Made by a program: the position numbers and the translations under genes. 64,000 bases of DNA from Mangifera indica (lineage: Eukaryota; Streptophyta; Magnoliopsida; Sapindales; Anacardiaceae). The DNA is taken from contig NC_058150.1 of NCBI RefSeq assembly GCF_011075055.1, forward strand, positions 9,896,330 through 9,960,329, read 5' to 3'. The notes below the pieces were generated by a model. It was not told the DNA's origin, made no database searches, and worked only from the letters and a program-made list of their open reading frames with translations. Shown piece by piece: positions 43,561 through 50,734 of this stretch. Every line of letters begins with the position of its first letter. Position 1 is the first letter of the stretch.

Positions 43561-44277
43561 ACTAGAAACTATTATGTGGATGAGCCCAAAATGCTTAAAA
43601 CCTCTCTTATAAGTAGATAAGAACAAAATAAAATTTGTGGGATAATAAACCAAGAATTCCAACCATGTGTCTTTTATAAATATTTTCTGCATAACGTCAT
43701 GCATGAACGTGCATACTTAATATGCACATCCATGTGCCATGTTTGAAATGTCTAATATAACAGGCTATCCTTCCAACTAATATGACAAACAATGCACAAA
43801 CATCTTACATGTACGAATGTACATCCTTTTAAAATTACAATATTTAGCTTATTTAATCAATAATTCAATTCATAACCATATACTTACATATGAACTCATA
43901 CAAAAAAACTAAAATATCACCAAGATGTATTCATGAATGCTACATTTGCTCTCAAACTTTTTCATTTTTGGTTTGCAGATAAAACAATCTTTTTTGCTTT
44001 TTTTTTCTTCTATATGCTAATCTGCATCGTCACATGTCACCTTAAGTTCACCACATATTCAATATAACAGATTTTTATTTATTTTTTAAATTTCAATGTA
44101 AAAAGACTAAACTGGCTTTAAATATGACATGCTAACATTGAACAACTTTATCCAAACCATCGAAATTTGATGAAAATTCTTTAACCTTCGATGATGACTT
44201 TGAACTCCATAATGCATTTAAAACTTTGCCCACCCACATGTCAATCATCCAAGACTTTACTTTTTAAAATATAACAT
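43561..44277. other. Unassigned sequence flanking the copia insertion
   Basis: AT-rich; no RT or gag homology seen that would continue the gypsy element. Continues at 50527-50734 across the copia insertion. Confidence 0.45.
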
Positions 44278-44282
44278 TGCTT

Positions 44283-44627
44283 TGTTACAGATGCAGGTGG
44301 CTTTCCACCAAAGCAAGTCAAGAAAAGGGATGTGAAAACATTTATTATTGCAAAAGAAATTGGAGAGACTGACACAGGAGAAGAAAATTTGGCCAAAAGA
44401 GAATGAGAAGGCATTAAATGCCTTGACAATTTTGGCTTGCAAATTGTATTTTTCTTGACTAAGAGGGCGGCCAAATGTTCTATAAATACCCCCTCATCCT
44501 TTGTAATTAAAGCATTCGAAAATCATAATTTCACTGCTTTGCTTTCTTCTCAATTTTGTCTTACTGTCTTCCTTCAATCTTCTTTCATTTTTTTATCTTT
44601 CATATTTGCTAAATTAATTCTATAACA
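44283..44627 (+). repeat. Copia 5' LTR
   Basis: Starts TGTTACAG, ends TATAACA. A TATA-like CTATAAATA lies at about 44480. It is followed by CATTATCAACACC; no standard initiator-tRNA primer site (TGGTATCAGAG) is present there, so priming must use another tRNA region or the site has decayed. Confidence 0.93.
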
Positions 44628-44784
44628 CATTATCAACACCATCTGTTCAAATATATTGTAATCTTCCCATTATGTCGTTATGCTGCTTATATATTATATA
44701 TATGGATATCCCAATTGTGATATCTCAATTATCTTTTAATTTATGTTATGCTTCTATTTAATTTTTCATAATAATTGTACTCTA

Positions 44785-45242
44785 TTTGCAACCTGAAGTT
44801 TGTAAAATTGTAAATCTAGACCTGAAGTCCTGAAGCCTTTGAATCTAGACCTGAAGTCTAAAATATCATAAATTTGGACTAGAAGTTCTGAACATTATTT
44901 ATAACCTGAAGTTACAAAAATTATGAACATGGACCTGAAGTCCTAAATATGATTACTGTATATAATCTGTAACCTGAAGATTACAAAATCATGAGAAAAT
45001 ATATATAGGCCTAAAGTCCTATATTTCATTGATATATTTATTATAATTACATCCCACTTACAACTTGAAGATTGCATAAGTGATGAAAATAATGAAATAG
45101 AAATCTAAAATATTATGTAAGTTTTACATAAAACCAGAAGTTTTGTGAATATATAACAAATACGAACCTGAAGTTCGCACATAATTTTTCTTCATTATAT
45201 CACTAATTATTATTTTTTTCATCAACCTGCAGTTGGTGAAAA
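44785..45242 (+). ncRNA. Leader array of twelve constant-loop, co-varying hairpins
   Basis: Untranslated leader of the copia RNA. Loops start at 44793, 44822, 44851, 44880, 44906, 44935, 44974, 45011, 45065, 45135, 45168 and 45227. The loop is CTGAA in most, with one-base variants TAGAA, CTAAA, TTGAA, CAGAA and CTGCA, always closed by C-G. Arms differ but pair: TAGAC/GTCTA, TAAC/GTTA, GGAC/GTCC, CGAAC/GTTCG, AAAAC/GTTTT, TGTAAC/GATTACA (bulged A), CAAC/GATTG extended by CACTTA/TAAGTG. The last (TTTTCATCAAC/GTTGGTGAAAA) ends at the gag start. Spacing is 29,29,29,26,29 for the first six. Function unknown; see findings. Confidence 0.8.
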
Positions 45243-46192
45243 CGACAAATCTTATAAAACTTCAATATGTTGCCCTTCGATTGGATGGAGCAAATTATTC
45301 TGAATGGGCTTTGGACATAGTTCTCCATCTACAATCAATGAGCCTTGGAGAAACAATAAAAGAAGGAAATGATGCATCTCAGTAGGATAAATCTAAAACT
45401 ACTATTTTCCTTCGTTATCATATCCACGAAGGGCTACGAGCAGAATACATGGATATTATGGATCTATTGGAATTGTGGAGAAATCTGAAAGAAAGATTCG
45501 ATCATCATAAATCAATAACATTACCAATGGCCTAATATGAATGGACTCATTTACGCTTACAAGATTCTAAATCTGTAAGTGAATACAACTCTGTCATGTT
45601 CAGAATTGTCTCCCGAATGAGACTATGTGGAGAAAAAATAACTAAAGAAAATATGTTAGAAAAAACTTTCTCCATATTTCATCCCTCAAATATGCTCATA
45701 CAACAGCAATATAAGGAAAGAAATTTTAAAAAATATTATGAACTAATATCCTGTTTATTGGTGGCTGAGCAAAACAATGAATTATTATTAAGGAACCATC
45801 AGACTTGCCCCACTGGTATTGTCCCATTCCCTGAAGTGAACGCAACTACTAGTAGTAGTTATCATGGGCACAGACAAGGTCCTGGACGAAATAAGTTTCG
45901 ATCCAGAGGTGGTCATAATAGAAAATCTTTCCACCGTTAAAAGACCAAAGATGAAGCAAAACAGGATAAAAGGAAAATGATACAGAGTAAACCACAGAAT
46001 CATAATAGTAAATGTTATAGATGTGGTTCAAAAGGTCATTGGTCTTGTACCTATCGTACGCCAAGACATCTGGTAGATTTATACCAAGCATCAATTAAAA
46101 ATGTAGACCAGAAGATCGAATCAAATTGTGTTGATAATCCAGACCTTATAGATTTGGCAAACTTTGATATTTCAGAATTTCTTCAAGACTAA
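45242..46192 (+). pseudogene. Copia gag
   Basis: UBN2-type Gag, the capsid and nucleocapsid precursor. Read-through includes YVALRLDGANYSEWALDIVL, IFLRYHIHEGLRAEYMDIMD, LRLQDSKSVSEYNSVMFRI and LLVAEQNNELLLRNHQ, then a basic Arg/Gly stretch. The expected start codon is ACG (45242-45244), probably a lost ATG, directly after the last leader hairpin. In-frame stops include one after NDASQ (about 45382) and one at 45532. The zinc knuckle reads CYRCGSKGHWSCTY: the last Cys of CX2CX4HX4C is Tyr, so nucleic-acid binding would be damaged. Ends LQD-stop at 46192. Confidence 0.88.
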
Positions 46193-46289
46193 GAAATTAT
46201 GTATATTATAGTGTGTAATTGGTACTATATGTTTCTTCCTTTCAAATTTTGTAATCACTAATGTAAATTTTAAAATGAAAGGAAATAGA

Positions 46290-49200
46290 CTCCAAACTTG
46301 AAACGTTAACTTCAAAAGCTGGTGATAAAAACCTGTGTTTGGTTGATAGTGCAACCACCTACACTATATTAAAAGAAAAGAAATTTTTCTTAATTTTATC
46401 ACCAATAGAGGCTAAAGTAAATACTATATCGGAATTAATCAATTTGATTGAAGGCTCCGAAAGAGCTATAATTATGTTAAACAATGGTACCAAATTAAAC
46501 ATCAATGATGCATTATATTCAAGTAGATCCAGAAGAAATCTACTCAGTTTTAAAGATATAAAAAATAATGATTATCATATTGAAACCATGAGTGAAAATG
46601 ATGCAAAATTCATTTGTATAACTAGTAATGCCTCCAGAAGAAGGCTTATACTAGAGAAATTGTCTGCTTTATCATTTGGATTGTATTATACAATCATAAA
46701 GGCAATTGAAACCTACACAGTATCGAACCAGAAGTTTGTTAATCCAAAAGCATTTATACTTTGACATGATCGTTTAGGCCACCTAGGATCTACAATGATG
46801 TGTAGGATTATTGAAAATTCATATAGACATACATTGCAGAATCATAAAATTTTATTGTCTAGTGACCAATTCTGCACCGCCTGTTCTCAAGGCAAATTAG
46901 TAATAAGACTATCCCCTTCCAAAATTAGAGGGGAATCCCTATCATTCCTGCAAAGGATTCAAGGGGATATATGTGGACCCATTCATCCACCAAATGGGCA
47001 TTTCGTTATTTTATGGTCTTAATTGATGCATCTGCACAATGGTCTCATGTTTGTTTATTGCCTATTCAAAATGTTGCATTTGCTAAACTATTAGCAAAAA
47101 TTATCAAATTAAAGTCACATTTTGCATAATATTCGATCAAGTCAATACGGCTATATAATGCTAGTGAATTTACATCCAAAACATTTGATGATTATTGCAT
47201 GTCTATAGGGATTGAGGTTGAATATCCAGTCTCGCATGTCCACACACAGAATGGATTAGCTGAGTCTCTTATCAAACGACTCTAGGTAATTACACGCTCT
47301 TTATTATTAAAAAGTCAATTACCTACTTCTATGTGGGGACATGCTATATTACATACTGCATCATTAATTCGCTTGTAACCTTCTGCTTATCATCAATATT
47401 CTCCCTTACAATTAGTCTTTGGTTATCAACCTGATGTATCTCATTTGAGAATATTTGGTTATGTTGTATATGTCCCTATTGCGTCTCCTCAACACACAAA
47501 AATAGGACCCCAACATTGTATGAAAATATATGTTGGATATAATTCACCATCCATTATCAGGTATCTGGAACCATTAACAGGTAATCTTTTTACTGCATGA
47601 TTTACAAATTGTCACTTTGATGAGACAACTTTCCCATCTTTAGGGGAAAAGAAAATGCCTCTTGAAGTTAGGCATGAACTTACTTGGTATGTACCTACCA
47701 TGTCTCATTTAGATCCCGCACATCCCAAAGTGAAACTAAAGTTCAGAGGATAGTGTGCTTACAAATTATTGCCAACCAAATGCCTGATGTATTTGTTGAT
47801 ACGGCAAAAGTGACAAGATCACATGTTCTAGTCGCTAATGCACCAGCAAGAATCAATATGACTATTGAACAGTCCATTCATATCGTGACTGATCAATCTA
47901 CCTCACGTCAAAAGCGTGGTAGACCTATTGGATCGAAGGACATTGTTCCTCGAAAAAGAAAGGTAAATAATCAAACAAATATTAATCATGATGATCCTAA
48001 GATAATTGAAAAATCTACACTCTCTAATATTCCTCCAGAAAAGGTTATAGTTCTTGAAGAGACTCAATCCCCTGAAGTGGCACAAGTCCCTGAAGTGACA
48101 CAAACCCTTGAAGTGGTACAAAATTCTGAAGAACAGGAAAATAAGAATATTGAAATATCTTTAAATTATGTTCATACACGAGAGGTGTGGAATCGTGAAA
48201 CATTTATAATTGATGACATATTCTCATTTGTAGTAGCTACTGAAATTCTAAATGATGATGATTTTAAGCCACATACTATGGCTGAGTGCAAACAAAAACA
48301 TGATTGGCATAAATGGGAAGAAGCAATTCAAGCAGAATTAACTTCTCATGCAAAACGTCAAGTGTTTGGGCCTGTAGTTCCAACACCTCAAGACGTACAG
48401 CCCGTTAGATATAAATGGGTATTTATGAGAAAAATGAAATTGTTAGATATAAAGCTAGGCTAGTAGCCTAAGGTTTTTCCCAAAGGCCCGATATAAACTT
48501 TGATGAAATATATGCACCTGTAATGGATATAATCACATTCAGATATTTAATCAGTTTAACAGTCTCTGAAAGACTGTATATGCATCTAATAGACGTAGTT
48601 ACTACTTATTTGTATAGAAATTTGGATACTGAAATTTATATAAAACTCCTTGAAGGATATAAATTGTCTGAAGTGAAAGGGGACAATCCAAGAGGCATGT
48701 ACTCTATCAAATTACAAAGATCATTATATGGATTAAAACAATCCGAACATATGTGGTACAATCGCTTGAGTGAATATTTGAAAAAAGAAAGCTATGTAAA
48801 TGATCCTATATACCTATGTGTTTTTATCAAAAGGTTAGAATTAGGATTTGCTATTGTAGCAGTTTATGTTGATGATATGAATTTAATTGGGACTCCTGAA
48901 AAGCTCTAAAAAACTACTGAATATTTGAAAAAGGAATTTGAAATGAAGGATTTAGGAAAAACCAAATATTGTCTCGGCTTGCAGATCGAGTACAATTCAA
49001 ATAGAATACTTATCCATCAATCAACCTATATCGACAAATTATTAAAACGTTTTCATATGGATAAGACTTATCCTTTGACCACTCTAATGGTTGTTCAGTC
49101 TCTTGATCTGAAAAAGAATCTATTTCGTCCTAAAAAATAAAATGAAAAGATATTTGGTCCTGAAGTACCATATCTTAATGCCATTAGGGCCCTATTATAT

Positions 49201-49875
49201 TTGGCCCAATGCACGAGACCGGATATATCATTTGCAGTTAATTTGTTAACCTGATTTAGCTCTACACCAACACGTCGCCATTGGAATGGAATCAAACATA
49301 TGCTTCATTACCTATGTGGAACTAGAGATTTGAGATTATTCTATTTTGTCAAATCCTTTAAAAATCCTAGTTTGGTTGGATATGCAGATGTTGGTTATCT
49401 TTCTGACTCTCATAAGGCTCGTTCATAGACAGGACATGTTTTCACTTATAATGACACAACAATATCATAGCGCTCTACCAAACAGACCTTGGTTGCAACG
49501 TCCTTAAATCATTCAGAAATTCTAGCTTTACATGAAGCCAACCGAGAATGCATATGGTTGCAGTCTGTCATCCATCATATCTGACATACATGTAGTCTTC
49601 GATCAACAATAAACACTTCTTCCATATTATATGAAAACAATGCAATATGTATTGCCCAAATTAGAGGTGGATATATCAAAGGAGATAGAACCAAATATAT
49701 CTCACCAAAGTTCTTCTACACTCATGAGCTCCAGCAGAGCAAGAAGGTTGATGTTAAGCAAATCAGATCCAATGAGAATCTGGCAGATTTGTTCACCAAG
49801 ACACTACCAACATCAACATTTGAGAAGTTAGTGTATAACATCAGTATGCGGTGGCTCAATAAGCAACCATGTTAA
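46290..49875 (+). pseudogene. Copia pol (protease, integrase, RT, RNase H)
   Basis: Order as in Ty1/copia. Protease VDSATTYTIL (46339). Integrase zinc region HDRLGHLG and CTACSQGK; the Trp before HDRLG is a stop (46762-46764). The second catalytic Asp is Tyr (RLYNASEF, codon 47154-47156); the Glu region AESLIKRL remains. RT: YKWVFMRKMK (about 48410), DVVTTYLYRNLDTEIYIKL, LYGLKQSEHMWY, and intact catalytic AVYVDDMNLIG (about 48868). RNase H: NHSEILALHEANRECIWLQ, YENNAICIA, LADLFTKTLP. Frameshifts near 46997 and 47720-47760 plus about ten stops make it inactive. A PEVxQ repeat at 48070-48120 overlaps three hairpins. Confidence 0.92.
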
Positions 49876-50156
49876 TCCTACTACAAAGAGGGGGAGTGTT
49901 CATTAGGGGGGAGAATTCATCAGACAAAATTTTAAAGTTTATCAAATATTGGACAAAAGGTGCCCTATACTCTTTTTTCCTTCACTAGGTTTTGTCCCAT
50001 TAGGCTTTCCTAGTAAGGTTTTTAATGAGGCAGTTTAAGCACGTCCAACGCCAACTTACAGAACATTTAATAATTATGTTTCTTTGCTTTGGTTTTTATC
50101 CCACTGAGTTTTTCTTTAGTAAGGTTAATATAATTATCTGTAAGTGGTGAAAATCC

Positions 50157-50165
50157 AAAGGGGAG
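50157..50165 (+). other. Copia polypurine tract
   Basis: AAAGGGGAG immediately before the 3' LTR; primer site for plus-strand DNA synthesis. Confidence 0.85.
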
Positions 50166-50521
50166 TGTTACAGATGCAGGTGGCTTTCCACCAAAGCAAG
50201 TCAAGAAAAGGGATGTGAAAGCATTTATTATTGCAAGAAGAAATTGGAGAGACTGACACAAGAGAAGAAAATTTGGCCAAAAGAGAATGAGAAGGCATTA
50301 AATGCCTTGACAATTTTGGCTTGCAAATTGTATTTTTCTTGACTAAGAGGGCGGCCAAATGTTCTATAAATACCCCCTCATCCTTTCTAATTAAAGCATC
50401 CAGAAATTATAATTTCACTGTTTTGCTTTCTTTCATTTTCTTCTCAATTATGTCTTACTGCCTTCCTTCAATCTTCTTTCATTTCTTTATCTTTCGTATT
50501 TGCTAAATTAATTCTATAACA
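50166..50521 (+). repeat. Copia 3' LTR
   Basis: Partner of 44283-44627. It has an about 10-bp insertion (TTTCATTTTC) in the pyrimidine-rich R/U5 part and a one-base insertion near 50240. Confidence 0.95.
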
Positions 50522-50734
50522 TGCTTAACTTTTTAATTTTTTTTTTAAATAATTCGGCATCACTCGGTCCAAATTCCTATCATCCATGTGGCGACTTCAG
50601 ATTGCAACAAACATTACCCTGATACAAATATTATTGCTTTTTTTATTTTTTATTTTTTAAATTCTTTTCATCTTCATTTTCTCGCTCATCAAAGTGTCAT
50701 CACCCCATTAGCTATGTTCTTTCAATTCTTTAAA

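Follow-up and report, generated by a model that had tools for sequence, protein, structure and literature searches.

A row of pentaloop hairpins with matched arms in the leader of a mango copia retrotransposon: candidate docking sites for Gag

The window analysed here is a stretch of 64,000 nucleotides from the genome of mango (Mangifera indica; contig NC_058150.1, positions 9,896,330 to 9,960,329). It contains a degenerate Ty1/copia long terminal repeat (LTR) retrotransposon at 44283-50521, flanked by a 5-bp target-site duplication. The leader of this copy, 615 bases that end at gag, carries a row of twelve small hairpins with closely similar loops and with arms that differ from one hairpin to the next. 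What keeps the two arms of each hairpin complementary, and what use might a retrotransposon have for such a row? We propose, with a probability of roughly 55%, that the array acts in cis, as RNA, in a Bianca-like copia element and provides a set of Gag docking sites for packaging, Gag binding and packaging being the steps that we infer.

The twelve units span 44785-45242, and each consists of the loop CTGAA, or a variant of it, held between complementary arms specific to that unit:

44785..44806, + strand: unit 1, loop CTGAA at 44793-44797, 8 pairs and a bulged T
44815..44833, + strand: unit 2, loop CTGAA at 44822-44826, weak (3 bp plus 2)
44846..44860, + strand: unit 3, loop CTGAA at 44851-44855, 5 bp
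44876..44888, + strand: unit 4, loop TAGAA at 44880-44884, 4 pairs including one G-U, read from the sequence
44902..44914, + strand: unit 5, loop CTGAA at 44906-44910, 4 bp
44931..44943, + strand: unit 6, loop CTGAA at 44935-44939, 4 bp
44968..44985, + strand: unit 7, loop CTGAA at 44974-44978, 6 pairs and one bulged A
45003..45024, + strand: unit 8, loop CTAAA at 45011-45015, 8 pairs and one bulged T
45055..45082, + strand: unit 9, loop TTGAA at 45065-45069, bulged inner stem and an outer CACTTA/TAAGTG helix
45127..45147, + strand: unit 10, loop CAGAA at 45135-45139, 8 pairs
45163..45177, + strand: unit 11, loop CTGAA at 45168-45172, 5 bp
45216..45242, + strand: unit 12, loop CTGCA at 45227-45231, 11 pairs (one G-U), reaching the gag start

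The initial annotation, made from the letters of the window, had described a mostly conserved CTGAA loop, which holds, and had counted eight exact loops with one changed base in each of the others. The exact count is seven of twelve; CTAAA, TTGAA, CAGAA and CTGCA are one base off, and TAGAA is two off. Its description of unit-specific complementary flanks also stands, with the correction that several stems pair only when a one-base bulge is allowed in the 3′ arm. The C-G closing pair is present in all twelve units, the first six loops are phased at 29, 29, 29, 26 and 29 nucleotides, and the final 11-bp helix (45216-45242) reaches the gag start, all as described there; the start codon itself is lost in the window copy. 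Among the eleven units folded in isolation, those with loops at 44906 (0.0), 45065 (-0.6) and 44974 (-1.6) are weaker than -2 kcal/mol.

The window leader was scanned for loops within one base of CTGAA lying between C and G. This pattern gave 12 hits (11 of the 12 units, and a hit at 44830 that overlaps a neighbour), compared with a mean of 0.33 and a maximum of 3 in 1000 dinucleotide shuffles, and 8 hits folded at -2 kcal/mol or better (shuffle mean 0.04, maximum 2). Unit 4, whose TAGAA loop at 44880 falls outside the pattern, is absent from these counts. An excess of paired units over shuffled leaders, the comparison suggested in the initial annotation, is clear. In an arm-swap control, 3′ arms were exchanged among units while loops, core and composition remained unchanged; none of 20,000 exchanges matched the observed total energy, and a single one did so when 44830 was omitted. 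Structure counted without regard to the loop was unremarkable (4 perfect hairpins with 5-bp stems and 5-nt loops; shuffle mean 0.94, maximum 4), so that the evidence depends on loop and arms jointly. A plain tandem repeat was considered and rejected, because the arms differ among units while their complementarity persists. A search of 44200-45700 against 4227 Rfam families gave no match with E up to 1.

All of the evidence comes from one genome, that of mango, in which exact pairs of ACCTGAAGT spaced 5-30 bases apart occur at 290 places, and the reversed pattern at 3. A set of loci that avoids selection by the array was obtained with the first 398 bases of gag as query (41 matches; 40 of 169 candidates scored), and 30 gag-selected loci were cut out, the window's own copy among them. 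Four or more units were present in 29 of the 30, at recurring distances from gag (the exception, L070, has none), with 0 to 12 units per locus and a median of 8; in 25 the unit immediately preceding gag has the loop CTGCA. A second set, of 40 loci chosen by the array pattern, provided 42 spans, for a total of 72 leader spans, one locus being counted in both sets (L027 and L061). The 852 units in these spans carry the loops CTGAA (409), TTGAA (122), CCGAA (94), CAGAA (71) and CTGCA (54) and, more rarely, CTAAA (42), CGGAA (40), ATGAA (10) and others (10). By their leaders, 36 of the 42 array-selected spans (within L009-L048) were assigned to a second family, referred to below as the sister family.

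Beyond these sets, 20 further gag loci (of at least 131), at 48-84% protein identity, were inspected; units of -2 kcal/mol or lower number one or more in 16 of the 20 and four or more in 5, and the loci appear to be decayed members of the same lineage. A Xanthoceras gag query revealed no separate mango clade among the 124 matches listed (117 of 804 candidates scored), its best matches being the same loci. One derivative, L201, has lost the entire array, and its primer site almost abuts gag. CAGAA loops (45127-45147 in the window; also L034 and L041) are in both families frequently carried by long AAAAC/GTTTT stems with no bulge, with exceptions (L010), as if these units formed a separate sub-class.

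Does each arm depend on its own partner? In all 69 spans with five or more units (3 of the 72 were skipped for too few), own arms paired better than swapped arms; at most 20 of 2000 swaps reached the observed value in 62 of these spans, and at most 100 of 2000 in all 69. The spans are related to one another, hence the test was pooled over mutually dissimilar units. With 32 or 33 classes differing at more than 4 of 18 arm bases, 0 of 20,000 swaps reached the observed value, and with 16 or 15 classes differing at more than 6 of 18, 1 and 0 of 20,000 did. In the reference leader of the sister family, all four Watson-Crick types occur at pair position 4 across units. Standard pairs fill 96.3% of cells at 101 pairs in that family and 46-69% when partners are slid by 1-3 bases, a comparison that favours the unslid register since one row supplied the helices. 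Between units, two-sided changes are numerous, and one-base bulges recur.

Because copies decay after insertion, private variants (found in 1-2 copies) were used as a mutation control for shared variants (found in 3 or more). Aligned for this purpose were 36 of the 42 array spans, after four window-family and two odd or short spans were dropped, and 26 of the 30 gag loci, after removal of L068, L070, L071 and L076. In the sister family, stems had 27 shared types to 94 private cells and spacers 166 to 308 (p = 0.009; p = 0.0004 at a four-copy threshold); in the window family the figures were 19 to 48 for stems vs. 174 to 247 for spacers (p = 0.045), or 20 to 62 vs. 170 to 255 with another reference (p = 0.009), where stem labels taken from a single reference copy lean slightly toward stem constraint and test sizes are modest. 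Among one-sided changes, pairing survives in 14 shared types and is lost in 9, and among private variants it survives in 30 cells and is lost in 62, ratios that were not compared formally. Independent drift of the arms in homologous leaders, named in the initial annotation as an outcome that would speak against it, is thus seen in part. Private two-sided changes kept the pair in 8 cells and broke it in 2. Pair counting within the window family was tried as proof of covariation and dropped, as decay after insertion is too heavy there. The arm swaps, the stem and spacer variants and the pooled classes all support the view, put forward in the initial annotation, of repeated structured sites as opposed to simple tandem DNA.

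Which strand carries the selected structure is indicated less strongly. G-U changes retain a helix on the + strand, and A-C changes retain one on the minus strand. Shared changes comprised 26 G-U and 15 A-C, and private changes 45 and 59 (p = 0.042, favouring the + strand); by family, p was 0.038 for the window family and 0.35 for the sister family. Interior mismatches in 355 unique units numbered 83 G-U, 56 A-C, 71 A-A and 50 T-T. Whole-leader folding energy was also tried as a strand test and failed to discriminate. Selection on the + RNA is weakly favoured by these base changes.

The sister family bears most directly on function. It makes up most of the array-selected mango spans and combines a broken gag with a pol region and a leader of about 1 kb (also in L220 and L221). 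Its spans hold 5 to 24 units with a median of 17, and 15 or more in 24 of 36 (the gag-selected loci have a median of 8), numbers that lean upward as these spans were chosen by array pattern; truncation affects some of them. Of the sister-family loci, 23 gave a gag match, and no match begins ahead of residue 18 of gag. Ten of the 23 show two gag matches that adjoin near residue 68-72 in different frames; in L012 a gapped match at 29% identity crosses that point, and the other 12 do not reach both sides. Four sister-family copies that were inspected share a common junction that lacks both the gag start and the adjoining hairpin unit. Gag is thus disabled in this family by shared lesions, as in the BARE2 family of barley discussed below. 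In two sister-family copies no DNA match to further gag was present; over 4 kb they match the pol region of the window at 87-88%, and where aligned their two LTRs are 96% and 99% identical. These features suggest that the family seems to have multiplied with gag broken.

The pol comparison covered 17 copies of the sister family and 28 of the gag-selected set (L237, L073 and L077, with no long match, were dropped). Near-fixed differences between the families in the first 861 bases of pol fall at codon positions 1, 2 and 3 in the numbers 7, 4 and 17 (16 silent, 12 changing), a bias that may predate the loss of gag. Within the sister family, shared pol variants comprise 17 silent, 20 changing and 0 stops, vs. 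68, 158 and 12 among private variants (p = 0.054), by which pol would perhaps still be constrained.

A family without Gag of its own must be picked up by foreign Gag, and a leader feature that it retains is for that reason a candidate recognition element. In the sister family the array is kept and lengthened while the gag-start unit is lost in the copies inspected, a pattern that speaks for recognition of the RNA in trans, as in packaging, rather than for a main role in controlling gag translation. Among the three functions put forward in the initial annotation (Gag packaging, translational control and nuclear export), Gag packaging is favoured on this ground. In the mechanism we have in mind, the genomic (+) RNA would present a row of small hairpins, most of them displaying a CNGAA-type pentaloop on a short helix, and these loops would act as repeated low-affinity docking sites for the element's Gag. 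The Gag of an intact relative carries one CCHC zinc knuckle (Pfam zf-CCHC), which could take the loop G much as the nucleocapsid protein (NC) of Moloney murine leukaemia virus (MoMuLV) takes the G of UCUG; by this analogy, a C-N-G loop on a stem of free sequence fits a single-knuckle reader. Many such sites would jointly mark the RNA for packaging into virus-like particles. The sister family would live on Gag from gag-bearing copies, and would hence keep and lengthen its docking array. A bolder extension, which we regard as possible and rather doubtful, is that Gag counts sites in a dense row of like loops instead of reading a single packaging fold, and that a gag-broken parasite gained on its helper by adding sites, in an arms race.

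Several observations weigh against packaging by Gag, or against parts of the argument for it. No significant deficit of shared variants was detected in the loop columns (p = 0.12 to 1.0), and two-sided changes are scarce within an orthologous unit across copies, with 2 shared double Watson-Crick types. Fixed wobble-type pairs are about even (7 G-U, 5 A-C), and leader folding exceeds shuffles on both strands: z is -2.6 on the + strand and -5.1 on the minus strand in the window copy, and the lower z falls on the minus strand in 5 of 8 leaders and on the plus strand in 3. For thirteen of the 36 sister-family spans the assignment comes from the leader alone, the sequence fetched for them containing no gag match. 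In pol of the gag-selected copies, shared variants (65 silent, 118 changing, 8 stops) and private ones (111, 260 and 18) showed no significant constraint (p = 0.18), which limits the use of private variants as a neutral control to what such small counts can bear. For Ty1, Gag is described in the consulted part of PMC8396678 as having similar in vitro affinity for different RNAs, with RNA of the packaging signal preferred in competition. A search with gag found no relative among viral contigs and none among plasmids; among genome contigs it found at least one, L199 (NZ_QPKJ02000023.1), a plant gag in a Solirubrobacter assembly, probably from plant contamination. The last 129 bases of the L199 leader, the sole leader from another plant that was read, showed no such hairpin by eye. 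The core pattern by itself also occurs in at least 120 stretches of viral contigs, which form no part of the evidence here.

The same observations can be set against other explanations. The mango hairpins, chiefly the one at the gag start, might regulate ribosome entry or allow self-repression by Gag, in the manner of the coat-protein operator of phage MS2. The terminal 11-bp unit does abut the gag start, a CTGCA unit occupies that place in 25 of 30 gag-selected loci, and the four sister-family copies inspected have lost both this unit and the gag start. With 10-21 ATGs in each of the four spans counted, ribosomes are unlikely to reach gag by simple scanning. Control of pol translation is possible as well, and the differences between the families in pol favour codon position 3. 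We nevertheless consider translational control an unlikely main role, since it leaves retention and lengthening of the array in the gag-broken family unexplained; the terminal unit may have a role in gag translation in gag-bearing copies. A copying process can also produce matching arms: tandem duplication of hairpins, with hairpin-templated correction during reverse transcription, might keep arms complementary without selection. The units are clearly related and phased, and private two-sided changes mostly keep pairs (8 kept, 2 broken), as such a by-product of mutation would have it. It would not account for the lower ratio of shared to private variants in stems than in spacers, nor for the pairs kept by shared one-sided variants in 14 of 23 types and by private ones in 30 of 92 cells, and on these comparisons, both of modest size, we hold it to be quite unlikely.

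Export from the nucleus, or binding of host proteins to the + RNA, would serve gag-broken copies too. Cauliflower mosaic virus provides a pararetroviral precedent, having a structured 5′ leader with an export function (as given in the excerpts of PMC12786077), and the array might similarly recruit TREX. By itself this idea predicts no repeated loop, and we give it little credence. There is a slim chance that the sites act in DNA, as palindromic repeats lying downstream of the LTR promoter that bind a transcription factor or work as enhancers. Repeats in the leader or U3 can act as enhancers in other elements, and the ACCTGAAGT core recurs and is imperfectly palindromic, but a factor site would fix its flanks, whereas those of the array vary with complementarity kept, and one-base bulges recur. 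We consider it very improbable that hairpins of the minus-strand cDNA are what matters, through pausing, strand transfer or chaperone sites in reverse transcription; the minus strand does fold better against its own shuffles in 5 of 8 leaders, the window's included, while G-U tolerance points weakly to the + strand. For packaging by Gag as the preferred reading, we infer the RNA as the selected strand, Gag as the ligand and packaging as the outcome.

The element in which the array lies has the structural features of a Ty1/copia LTR retrotransposon, namely two LTRs, a 5-bp target-site duplication, a primer-binding site and a purine tract, AAAGGGGAGTG, that precedes the 3′ LTR:

44278..44282, no strand: target-site duplication TGCTT, left copy, from the sequence
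44283..44627, + strand: 5′ LTR (TG...CA), 345 bp, matched in direct-repeat blocks at 95-99% to 50166-50521, ends read from the sequence
44628..44641, + strand: degenerate primer-binding site, where many relatives have CGTTATCAGCACGA, from the sequence
45245..46189, + strand: broken gag, start codon lost and three in-frame stops, from the sequence and comparison with relatives
50166..50521, + strand: 3′ LTR, by direct-repeat match to the 5′ LTR and from the sequence
50522..50526, no strand: target-site duplication TGCTT, right copy, from the sequence

The longest open reading frame of the window element (47684-48463) had no Pfam match. In a relative, L057, with intact open reading frames and a Gag 98% identical to a protein named for Mangifera indica, zf-CCHC, gag_pre-integrs and Pol_BBD scored above the Pfam cut-off, and Retrotran_gag_2 scored 25.8 bits, slightly under its cut-off of 27. 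In the same relative about 85 AT-rich bases (L057:2445-2534) lie between the gag stop and the opening of the pol frame, so that expression of pol would need reinitiation, splicing or another device.

The lineage is suggested by the primer site. The 14-mer CGTTATCAGCACGA occurs within Hamming distance 3 in 25 of the 30 loci selected by gag and in 35 of the 42 spans selected by the array, and 200 shuffles never came below 4. We take this site to be probably the complement of the anticodon arm of tRNA-Ile with a C opposite inosine, that is, half-tRNA priming. The Bianca lineage has a half-tRNA-Ile primer site with an edited base according to the portion of Neumann et al. (PMC6317226) consulted. 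On the basis of the primer site, the window element is likely a member of that lineage. A copia-type gag is common to both; no hairpin array is reported for Bianca in the same portion of PMC6317226.

How plant LTR retrotransposons select their own RNA seems little known, and a 2025 review, in the sections seen, discusses packaging by way of RNA pools, capping and granules (PMC12786077). We recognised no published description of such an array in a literature search made largely without subscription journals. If Gag reads the array, unit number would become a measurable trait in the contest between autonomous and parasitic copies. Because the repeated unit is simple, its arms match and the lineage includes members with gag and members in which gag is broken, short RNAs and a single small protein would be enough to test the question.

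As a structured cis element near the 5′ end, with the RNA weakly favoured as the selected strand, the array can be compared with known packaging signals. Satellite tobacco necrosis virus 1 (STNV-1) resembles it in having several short, degenerate packaging signals per RNA, and differs in being a plant satellite virus with an unrelated protein (PMC6475782, in excerpt). Ty1, likewise with Pseudoviridae RNA, has a structured 5′ region (+230-580) proposed as its packaging signal; it is built from a pseudoknot and palindromes, with low Gag specificity in vitro, and repeated pentaloop hairpins are not mentioned in the available part of PMC8396678. The core packaging signal of MoMuLV offers several short sites in leader RNA to an NC with a single CCHC knuckle, which pockets the G of UCUG, and there isolated hairpins bind weakly and a three-hairpin RNA tightly (PMC7599994, sections consulted). 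The UCUG bound by NC lies in a linker, whereas the mango CNG lies in a pentaloop, with 12 repeats in the window copy and as many as 24 in the sister family; the comparison implies no homology. For the sister family the parallel is with the barley Ty1/copia pair BARE1 and BARE2. In the account given by the part of PMC3735527 seen, BARE2 has no gag start, is packaged by the Gag of another element and has kept its packaging and dimerization signals; that text mentions no hairpin row, and the leader differs from that of mango. BARE2, the defective family, predominates in the barley genome (PMC3735527, same part), and the mango sister family, which also combines a broken gag with a retained leader element, may be packaged in trans in the same manner.
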